Shown: piece after piece, positions 1,555 through 32,935 of the stretch
How the letters are laid out: each line of letters opens with the position of its first letter
How positions within the stretch are numbered: position 1 is the first letter of the stretch
Assembly: GCA_947625195.1 (NCBI GenBank)
Contig: CANQNK010000002.1
Coordinates: forward strand, 1-64,000
Direction of reading: 5' to 3'
DNA length: 64,000 nt
Origin: an uncultured Clostridia bacterium
Lineage (GTDB): Bacteria > Bacillota > Clostridia > Oscillospirales > Ruminococcaceae
Notes under the pieces: generated by a model
What the model was told of the DNA's origin: nothing
What the model saw: the letters and a program-made list of their open reading frames with translations, nothing else
The model's database searches: none
Program-made: the position numbers and the translations under genes

Positions 1555-1574
1555 AATTTCTAAAAATAAAATTC

Positions 1575-1750
1575 CACCTTGCCGTCGCATAGCATATAAA
1601 ACCCGCACTCTCGCAGGTGGGTAACCGCCTGATTGTTTCACGATCCCCTCGTCCCGTAAGGATTTCTCGGCTTTCGCGGAGCCTTAGAGGAGGGCCTTCA
1701 ATCTGCAAACAGAGCTAAAGTTCCCTTTAAAAATGTGTTGGATTAAAAAA
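1575..1750. ncRNA. putative structured non-coding RNA (6S-like RNA is one possibility; strand unresolved)
   Basis: No convincing ORF; dense stems including CAGGTGG-GTAA-CCGCCTG, GGCT-ttcgcgg-AGCC inside CCCTC...GAGGG, and TCTG-caaa-CAGA; lies between two convergent genes. Confidence 0.45.
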
Positions 1751-1826
1751 AACTATGCTTGATCGAACAAGGCAGAAATTTTACAAACGTATTATCTGCT
1801 TTTGTCTGTGTTTTTATTCGCTTATA

Positions 1827-2159
1827 TCAGTTATCCTCACTGTGATGATGCTCACAGCTTTCGTCGTCGCACTCACCTTCGTACATATCTTCGAGCATAG
1901 ACATGAATATTTCACCGACCTTGTCAAAGGTCTCATCGTCGTCTACTGATACCAATATCTCTTCGTTTTCTTCGTAAACGCTTTTCAGTATTACCAAAAG
2001 TCCGTCGTCTTCAAGCGAATCCTGCGAATCATCATAATATGGCGTGAGGGCATAGTAAATTTCGCCCTTGTACTCGGTTTCCGCCAAAACCTCAAAGGTC
2101 TGCTCTTTTCCTTCTTCATCTACCAGTGTATAAAGGTCGGGTGTGTATTCGTTCGGCAT
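1827..2159 (-). CDS. DUF1292 family protein (YrzB-like)
   Basis: MPNEYTPDLYTLVDEEGKEQTFEVLAETEYKGEIYYALTPY pattern; acidic; Cys/His-rich tail; RBS AAAGGAGG upstream. Confidence 0.75.
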   Translation of the reverse strand: MPNEYTPDLYTLVDEEGKEQTFEVLAETEYKGEIYYALTPYYDDSQDSLEDDGLLVILKSVYEENEEILVSVDDDETFDKVGEIFMSMLEDMYEGECDDESCEHHHSEDN

Positions 2160-2302: not shown

Positions 2303-2331
2303 TTGACAATGCACAATAAATATGCTATATT
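2303..2331 (+). promoter_or_regulatory. strong sigma-A-like promoter
   Basis: TTGACA - 17 nt - TATATT. Confidence 0.7.
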
Positions 2332-2365
2332 ATAAACAAGGAAAAGGAAGAAAGGAATGATGAGT

Positions 2366-2404
2366 ATGAAAGCTTATCAGAAATCTATCCGAATCATCAA
2401 ATAA
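2366..2404 (+). CDS. putative 12-aa peptide MKAYQKSIRIIK (or 14 aa from ATG at 2360)
   Basis: AAAGGA RBS 9 nt before the ATG; TAA stop at 2402-2404; very short. Confidence 0.25.
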   Translation: MKAYQKSIRIIK

Positions 2405-2420
2405 GAAGGGAGCGAGTCCA

Positions 2421-2486
2421 ATGGGTTTTGAAGATTCATCACAGGTTTTTCTTTCCGCTGTTGCTCGTAAATCTAGGAGGACTTAA
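2421..2486 (+). CDS. putative 21-aa peptide MGFEDSSQVFLSAVARKSRRT
   Basis: AAGGGAG RBS with 8-nt spacing to ATG; basic C-terminus. Confidence 0.35.
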   Translation: MGFEDSSQVFLSAVARKSRRT

Positions 2487-2566
2487 AACTCAGACGAAAG
2501 AGCTGATAAAGTTAAATCATTTTGATATAAATATTTGAAGGACAGGGAAAGACAATTAAGGGTAGA

Positions 2567-2671
2567 ATGGCAAGTAGCTTGGGGGGTGATTCCGCCGGTT
2601 ATTCAGACTTTTATCTAAAACGAAATTTAATAAAGGAAGTACGGTCCAATGAAGTAATTGGTTTTCATTAA
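2567..2671 (+). CDS. putative 34-aa peptide MASSLGGDSAGYSDFYLKRNLIKEVRSNEVIGFH
   Basis: ATG preceded by AAGGG; open to TAA at 2669-2671; RBS spacing is short, so uncertain. Confidence 0.25.
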   Translation: MASSLGGDSAGYSDFYLKRNLIKEVRSNEVIGFH

Positions 2672-2734
2672 AATAAAATCTATGAAATAAGGTACGGTCC
2701 AATGAAATAAGTAGTTTTTAAAAATTTAATACAC

Positions 2735-2766
2735 AAAAAGCAGACGGGTTTTGTCGTCTGCTTTTT
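2735..2766. terminator. bidirectional terminator
   Basis: AAAAAGCAGACG-ggttttgt-CGTCTGCTTTTT between convergent units. Confidence 0.85.
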
Positions 2767-2792
2767 TGATGCAACAAATTTTGTTTTACACG

Positions 2793-3509
2793 CTACAGGA
2801 TCACCTCGTAGGTTTCCATATCCTTTAAAAGCCTTTTTCCGCTTTCTTTAATTTGCTCTACTTTGTCGTGTCCGTACTTTTTTGCTATAACCTCGTATGC
2901 TTTTGCAACGGGAACACCTCTGTCCTCGTGATGCATATCACTTCCTATTACCTGGACAAATCCTTGATTCATAAGCTTAAAGCAGCGCTTTTTGGTTTTT
3001 CTTTCAAGAAAAGAATTTGAATTTAGCTGGCCTAAAACATCCAGCGACATCAAGGCTTCAAGTTCGCTATAATCGGTAAAGTTTAAATATCTCTCAATGT
3101 GCGCGACCAAAATTTTAACTCTGCCACAGTCTACCAGCTGTGAAACGATATCTATTATCTGATTCGACAGACGCAGATACGGCATTTCAAGCAGAAGGTA
3201 ATTAGTTCCCTCAATGCACAGCTTTTCAAGATCGTCAAGGTGATTGAGCTTGCTTGTGTATAAAACCTCTGCGCCAAGCAGAATTTTAGGGTGATCAGGC
3301 TTGAGATAAGGCTTTAACTGCTCGTAAGAATTCTGTCTTGCTGACAAAAAGCTTTTTGTATCAATTTCGTGACAGTAAAAGTGCGGAGTGGCTATTACCA
3401 GATCCGTGCCGTTGCGGGCCATTATATCCAGAAGATGCACGGATTCCTCCACGGAAGCAGAGCCATCGTCGAGGCAGGGGAGTATATGCGAATGAAAATC
3501 TATCGTCAT
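2793..3509 (-). CDS. CpsB/CapC family PHP-domain tyrosine-protein phosphatase
   Basis: MTIDFHSHILPCLDDGSASVEES...; metal-binding His motifs; next to a BY-kinase. Confidence 0.9.
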   Translation of the reverse strand: MTIDFHSHILPCLDDGSASVEESVHLLDIMARNGTDLVIATPHFYCHEIDTKSFLSARQNSYEQLKPYLKPDHPKILLGAEVLYTSKLNHLDDLEKLCIEGTNYLLLEMPYLRLSNQIIDIVSQLVDCGRVKILVAHIERYLNFTDYSELEALMSLDVLGQLNSNSFLERKTKKRCFKLMNQGFVQVIGSDMHHEDRGVPVAKAYEVIAKKYGHDKVEQIKESGKRLLKDMETYEVIL

Positions 3510-32694: not shown

Positions 32695-32935
32695 AAAAAA
32701 TAAAAGCCCGCCCATCATATTGGGACGAACTTAAAAATTCCGTGGTACCACCCAAATTGCAGCACTAAAAAAATGCTGCCGCTCTTAATCTTTAACGCAG
32801 ATTTACGCTGCGGTTTTCCGCAGTGCTCAGGGTTAGCCGCCAAGAAGCGCCTGAAAGCTTTCACCGTCCGCTTTCTCTCTGAAAAACGCCGCGCCTGGGT
32901 AAGTCCCTTCATAGCAGATTTTACTAAAAACAGTA
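32695..32935 (-). promoter_or_regulatory. T-box leader of alaS
   Basis: Minus strand GGGTGGTACCACGG T-box sequence; terminator GTTCGTCCCA/TGGGCGGGC-TTTTATTTTTT; promoter TTGATT-N17-TATACT just upstream. Confidence 0.92.

Follow-up and report, generated by a model that had tools for sequence, protein, structure and literature searches.

The interval that separates the DUF1292 gene from the next annotated frame in the window (the whole stretch of DNA that was analysed, 64,000 nt) is occupied by a free-standing unit bounded by a promoter and an intrinsic terminator (Table 1). The promoter matches the consensus at 11 of 12 positions and has a TG ahead of the -10 element, and the transcript is expected to begin at about position 2338, as deduced from the position of the promoter. 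The terminator is a perfect 12-nt inverted repeat, AAAAAGCAGACG/CGTCTGCTTTTT (2735–2746/2755–2766), with a T-run on both strands. On the + strand, every open frame between the two signals is shorter than 60 aa, no gene follows the unit on its own strand in the window, and the RNA fold z of the unit is -2.3. A near-ideal promoter, a strong bidirectional terminator and the lack of a long ORF had all been claimed by the sequence-only reading of this DNA, and each of these claims was borne out; the promoter-to-terminator unit is confirmed to be real, and the observation goes further than that reading described.

Table 1. Features of the unit and its surroundings, with the predicted pairing of initiation sites to the 16S rRNA 3′ tail.
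Feature	Position	Strand	16S duplex (kcal/mol)	Remarks
6S RNA (Rfam RF00013)	1567–1781	-		far side of DUF1292; conserved neighbour
DUF1292 gene (PF06949)	1830–2159	-		divergent conserved neighbour of the unit
Promoter, sigma-70 type, TTGACA-N17-TATATT	2303–2331	+		-35 TTGACA 2303–2308; -10 TATATT 2326–2331
RNA unit, ~430 nt	2338–2768	+		start inferred from promoter, end from terminator
ORF1 micro-ORF, MKAYQKSIRIIK-stop	2366–2404	+	-12.4	start codon within hairpin GAUGAG...CUUAUC (2359–2379 region)
ORF2 initiation module, GAGCGAGTCCA-ATG	2410–2423	+	-17.7	
ORF2 micro-ORF, MGFEDSSQVFLSAVARKSRRT-stop (MGFEDSSQ...)	2421–2486	+		genus-conserved start M-x-x-E-x-S-S
Hairpin	2480–2513	+		UCAG (2490–2493)/CUGA (2503–2506) in covarying outer stem
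AUG-less 16S-complementary module, GGGGGGUGAUUCCGCC / GGGGGGTGATTCCGCC	2581–2596	+	-19.6	like modules in relatives
Mini-ORF MK-stop, ATG-AAG-TAA	2649–2657	+	-13.5	module AAAGGAAGTACGGTCCA
Mini-ORF MK-stop, ATG-AAA-TAA	2702–2710	+	-13.8	module AAGGTACGGTCCA
Intrinsic terminator	2735–2766	+		bidirectional by sequence
Next gene	2793–3509	-		convergent with the unit; 'tyrosine phosphatase' in the sequence-only reading

Two of the three short ORFs pointed out earlier in this interval, ORF1 and ORF2, are real. The third, MASSLGG... (2567–2671), is present as an open frame and was rejected as a conserved gene: its ATG is replaced by ATA in a relative of 87% identity (G014), an indel is present in another (G008), and its Shine-Dalgarno (SD) sequence is weak (-5.8 kcal/mol). 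Neither the AUG-less site nor the two mini-genes encoding MK had been listed, the latter having been overlooked on account of their position, within or next to the spurious MASSLGG frame. Both of these three-codon mini-ORFs sit on a 53-nt tandem duplication. The motif GTCCRATG occurs four times in the window, and three of these occurrences fall within the 430-nt unit, a clustering that exceeds chance.

Within the genus, the unit stands beside DUF1292 in divergent orientation in 14 of 15 genomes; the remaining assembly is 84% complete and gave no DUF1292 hit. In the search of these 15 genomes, four species gave copies with identities of 87, 82 and 80%, and the sequence upstream of DUF1292 revealed a diverged copy in every one of the remaining species in which it was taken. 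BLAST hits to the promoter only, elsewhere in the genomes (L008, L009, L012 and others), were not accepted as homologues of the unit. The -35 and -10 elements with their AAAAAACTATTGACA context are kept throughout the genus and also in other genera. Both ORF1 and ORF2 are maintained as reading frames genus-wide, with in-frame indels, synonymous changes and differing stops. The ORF1 versions (MKAYQKSIRIIK, MKAYQKFIRIIK, MKAYYLTSIRIIK, MLKRRLKAYQDRLIKI, MLKRIKSYQDRMIKI) differ by indels in multiples of three, by the use of TAA, TGA or TAG, and by conservative replacements (compare MKAYQKSIRIIK with MLKRRLKAYQDRLIKI). The ORF2 versions begin MGFEDSSQ..., MAIEESSK..., MAVESSS... or MAIEDSSMRRL; their C-termini are unrelated between clades, and in one clade the variable sites number 9, 9 and 11 at the three codon positions.

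Alongside these frames the genus relatives carry tandem cassettes composed of an SD sequence, a few bases, GTCC(A/G), ATG, one to three codons and a stop, which encode MNC, MC, MNS, MIC, MCC, MKY, MVH or MN. The dipeptide pattern GTCCAATGAARTAA is almost confined to the genus and is therefore unsuited as a probe for distant relatives. In two genomes, G005 and G010, the MNC/MC cassette pair is duplicated inside the unit, so that the number of modules differs among close species.

Conservation beyond the strain, which the sequence-only reading had named among the tests of its proposal, was found not only in the genus but also in other genera. A covariance model (R1) built from the ORF1–ORF2–hairpin core gave hits at E ≤ 0.1 in 58 of the family's 299 genomes, spread over 34 of its 126 genera; these E-values are rough. 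The hits examined share a strong promoter, an ORF2-like start GGAGCGAGTCC-ATG and the hairpin ACUCAG...CUGAYAAACUC, followed by further modules. In other genera the later modules encode MA, MV, MY, M, MR or MEK, each closed by a stop codon, or have the AUG-less form GGAGTGAG(T/A)CC(R)CC or GAGTCCRAAAGG. The common layout is SD-(N)-GUCCR-AUG, one to three codons and a stop, mingled with AUG-less modules that retain GGAGUGAGUCC; about 40% of the relatives' modules have no start codon, and most of those with AUG stop after one to three codons. The MY module of family f24 is spelled in three ways (TAC-TAG, TAT-TAA and TAC-TGA), and up to 12 occurrences of the motif stand beside DUF1292 at a single locus (L120). 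In a survey of 90 loci of DUF1292 across the order, the unit adjoins this gene only in the family of the window and in one sister family (L115, L133, L155, L157, L167 and also L090, whose ORF2-like frame begins MGTEESSQ...). The order 6S RNA–DUF1292–unit was found again in other genera, and 6S RNA lies close to the unit in 7 of the 20 relatives' loci tested and additionally in L204.

A compact RNA of about 150 nt, widespread in metagenome-assembled genomes labelled Oscillospiraceae and Candidatus Faecousia and present in two copies in several of them, carries the module AAAAAAGGAGTGAGTCCAATGTACTAAG (encoding MY) at its expected 5′ end, followed by a micro-ORF (for example MMEPNNFMR or MEPTFEKE) and by a terminator. 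It is putatively homologous to the unit, the module being the sole basis for this assignment. The second micro-ORF of the compact RNA (L192, L209, L241, L186 and others) has about 5–10 codons and ends at the foot of the terminator; a conserved element, TTATGGAACATCCCATCTTG, lies upstream.

Helix 1 surrounds the start of ORF1, pairs in all 14 genus sequences and includes one compensatory pair; the UCAG/CUGA hairpin pairing is invariant in the genus alignment, which taken alone yields little covariation in RNAalifold. Across 41 aligned sequences, each of the 16 pairs changed on both sides and the covariation score reached 0.32 vs at most 0.06 in slid controls, a result biased in favour of the structure by the fitting of this alignment to it.

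No Rfam covariance model matched the unit at the gathering threshold, either in the window or in the loci of 35 relatives; the only matches were 6S RNA, tRNA and T-box elements elsewhere, and the best sub-threshold matches within the unit are terminator-like. The earlier failure to recognise a tmRNA, RNase P RNA, SRP RNA or riboswitch here accordingly stands, and the direct match to a known class that would have refuted the sequence-only reading was searched for and is absent. A T-box leader (RF00230) does occur in the window, at 32718–32921 on the - strand. A riboswitch, T-box or attenuator leader was rejected for the unit itself, which lacks a same-strand downstream gene: the downstream genes are convergent or differ among relatives, where terminators also come after the unit. 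A type I toxin-antitoxin pair would comprise a hydrophobic toxin of about 20–60 aa and an overlapping antisense RNA; the longest conserved peptide of the unit has about 21 aa and is not hydrophobic, and no conserved antisense unit was noticed. No description of such an RNA was found in the library of open-access papers that was searched, and part of the RNA may already be listed, unnamed, among candidate structured RNAs. By its architecture the class appears to be new, and what we say of its function is a proposal.

The most distinctive property of the modules is their predicted pairing with 16S rRNA. The 3′ end of this rRNA is missing from the window genome's own assembly, and the tail used, GGATCACCTCCTTTCT, was confirmed in two genomes of the family, in which the 3′ end reads GGCTGGATCACCTCCTTTCT. 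The 5′ part of the modules (AAGGAG..UGA..UCC) shows complementarity to the final ~13 nt of 16S rRNA, far beyond a normal SD interaction. The predicted duplexes reach -15.1 kcal/mol for AUG modules (n = 100) and -14.8 kcal/mol for AUG-less ones (n = 64), compared with -9.9 kcal/mol for 62 gene starts of the window, each represented by its best candidate start, but UCC is part of the definition of the module, and the SD part taken by itself exceeds that of gene starts only slightly (-9.0 vs -7.9). Replacement of UCC by AAA costs about 4 kcal/mol, and among all 64 trimers at positions -4 to -2 UCC is the best for pairing with the tail. Of all 21-mers, 16% reach -11 kcal/mol in the unit, 3% in a control stretch and 0% on the antisense strand, which has no comparable 16S-complementary modules. 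A computation of additional pairing between 'CGCC' modules and helix 45 was set aside as uninterpretable, longer oligomers always scoring better.

The frames that follow the modules are unusually short. A stop within three codons terminates 66% of 131 modules (43 units) vs 16% of the remaining ATGs in these units that have an SD in front. In the other frames of the modules the corresponding values are 52% (+1) and 10% (+2); the early stops in frame +1 arise mostly because ATGA contains TGA, and the comparison between frames is therefore weaker than it appears. Each of the three stop codons occurs and the codons after AUG vary widely (K, C, A, V, Y, R, T, N), a variety that argues for an early stop rather than for one particular peptide. 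The AUG modules have the anatomy of minigenes, namely AUG, 1–7 further codons and a stop, with an SD at normal spacing.

The bar genes of phage lambda are toxic two-codon minigenes. ORFs of two to eight codons undergo reiterative translation in which the ribosome stays bound, 71 rounds having been recorded in vitro on the mccA message (PMC6495379), and a strong SD ahead of a minigene promotes repeated translation without dissociation (PMC8708949). The purine-rich end of SprF1 of Staphylococcus aureus binds ribosomes and reduces translation, in competition with the loading of mRNA (PMC8938821), which makes this RNA our working analogy; these published studies support the step from anatomy to mechanism. 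The unit has the complementarity to the 16S 3′ end that would be expected of an SprF1-like ribosome-associated RNA, but SprF1 itself is a short antitoxin of type I that has a single purine-rich 5′ end, whereas the unit has no toxin partner and bears many tandem modules with start codons and minimal ORFs. With the two-codon minigene mg2 of the axe-txe leader (PMC8708949) it shares the SD, the minimal frame and, as proposed below, re-initiation without dissociation; such minigenes, however, work in cis as part of a leader or are incidental, whereas here several of them are joined on an independent, conserved RNA that no gene follows. The mccA message likewise combines a strong SD and a very short ORF, read repeatedly by the same ribosome, on a short terminated RNA, but its seven codons specify the microcin C precursor, an antibiotic precursor modified by MccB (PMC6495379), while the unit's peptides consist of one to three residues and no modifying enzyme is encoded next to it. 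Among the RNA families that we could find, none combines numerous minimal ORFs with AUG-less 16S-complementary sites on one stand-alone transcript.

From the unit, its modules, their complementarity, the short frames and the synteny, all established in silico, we infer transcription, ribosome binding, idling and an effect on translation, which would proceed as follows. The free-standing RNA would be strongly transcribed, and its modules would grip 30S subunits or ribosomes very tightly. At AUG modules a peptide of two or three residues would be made and terminated, with re-initiation at the same site without release of the ribosome, while at AUG-less modules ribosomes would simply be held. Ribosomes parked in this way could lower or buffer the translation capacity, as 6S RNA holds RNA polymerase; ORF1, ORF2 and the hairpins might serve as additional docking, shielding or timing elements. 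That the RNA docks and idles ribosomes is, in our estimate, possible at somewhat below an even chance. The fuller proposal of an undescribed Oscillospirales-type RNA class, a translational counterpart of 6S RNA that captures ribosomes and keeps them idling by hyper-complementary 16S-binding modules with ORFs of 0–3 codons and is placed beside 6S RNA and DUF1292, is tentative and may well prove wrong. The parallel with 6S RNA concerns the holding of a core machine and the neighbourhood only, the two RNAs having no relation in sequence or structure. If ribosome parking is true, abundant and mostly uncultured gut bacteria would set their translation capacity by an RNA located physically beside the one that does an analogous job for transcription. 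The modules also offer a testable case for selection on ORFs of one to three codons, far under the limit of all gene finders.

The same evidence may be read differently. An ordinary stretch between genes, with a promoter and with ORFs due to chance, would account for the non-conserved MASSLGG frame, but the synteny, promoter, modules, hairpins and terminators conserved across genera make this very improbable. The near-identical modules, with or without AUG, might mimic mRNA starts by the repeated RGGAGUGAGUCCRAUG and so titrate a trans-acting sRNA or RNA-binding protein. CsrA, the best-known GGA-binding protein, would be the natural candidate, as the sponges of the CsrB/C and RsmY/Z type also present repeated GGA sites on stand-alone RNAs; however, csrA was found in 0 of 15 genus genomes by a search that was positive in the E. 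coli and B. subtilis controls, and the sites of the unit reach UCC(R)AUG, a part dispensable for CsrA, so that we rejected a CsrA sponge and consider titration in general distinctly unlikely. It is also conceivable, although we judge it rather improbable, that the RNA serves a different purpose (as an antisense, protein-binding or scaffold RNA) and that the seated ribosomes merely shield it from RNases. Protection of mRNA by ribosomes at minigene binding sites has been suggested (PMC8708949), the 5′ location of the module in the compact relatives is what such shielding would call for, and the covarying hairpins could be the working part; the number and tandem spread of modules nevertheless surpass the needs of 5′ protection, and a conserved long antisense or protein-binding segment was not found.

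The sequence-only reading had offered either a small-peptide operon or a regulatory RNA with decoy starts. The decoy half fits better, because many of the relatives' sites are AUG-less and those with AUG mostly have one to three codons. An mRNA for tiny active peptides (ORF1, ORF2 and the dipeptides), such as signals or regulators, is favoured by the coding-like variation of ORF1, by the M-x-x-E-x-S-S start of ORF2 that recurs in the sister family, and by the synonymous spellings of MY; yet peptides of one to three residues with almost any codon, and modules with no AUG, are hard to explain as products, the ORF2 C-termini are unrelated between clades, and no signal or membrane features were seen by eye. 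Purifying selection on amino acids rather than nucleotides is supported by the in-frame indels and varied stops but not by the nearly even distribution of variable sites over codon positions. We hold this explanation to be unlikely. The docking of ribosomes has difficulties of its own: the pairing of UCC at -4 to -2 would strain or block the ordinary placement of AUG in the P site, GUCC is possibly kept for another reason, and the amino-acid conservation of ORF1 and ORF2 suggests that their peptides may matter.

One order-level hit (L092) and several single-site hits in the contig scan (Pseudomonas, Streptococcus, Bacteroidaceae) look like chance matches. Positions 1400–1700 of L091, away from DUF1292, contain a promoter, GGAGTGAGTCC-ATG with the frame MVSQQSSHRQGSQPAL closed by a stop, and a second module; this element is likely a relative in a further family. 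The units of L084 and L070 carry repeated mini-genes encoding MA, with CCCCGCCGAAAGG-type segments in between.
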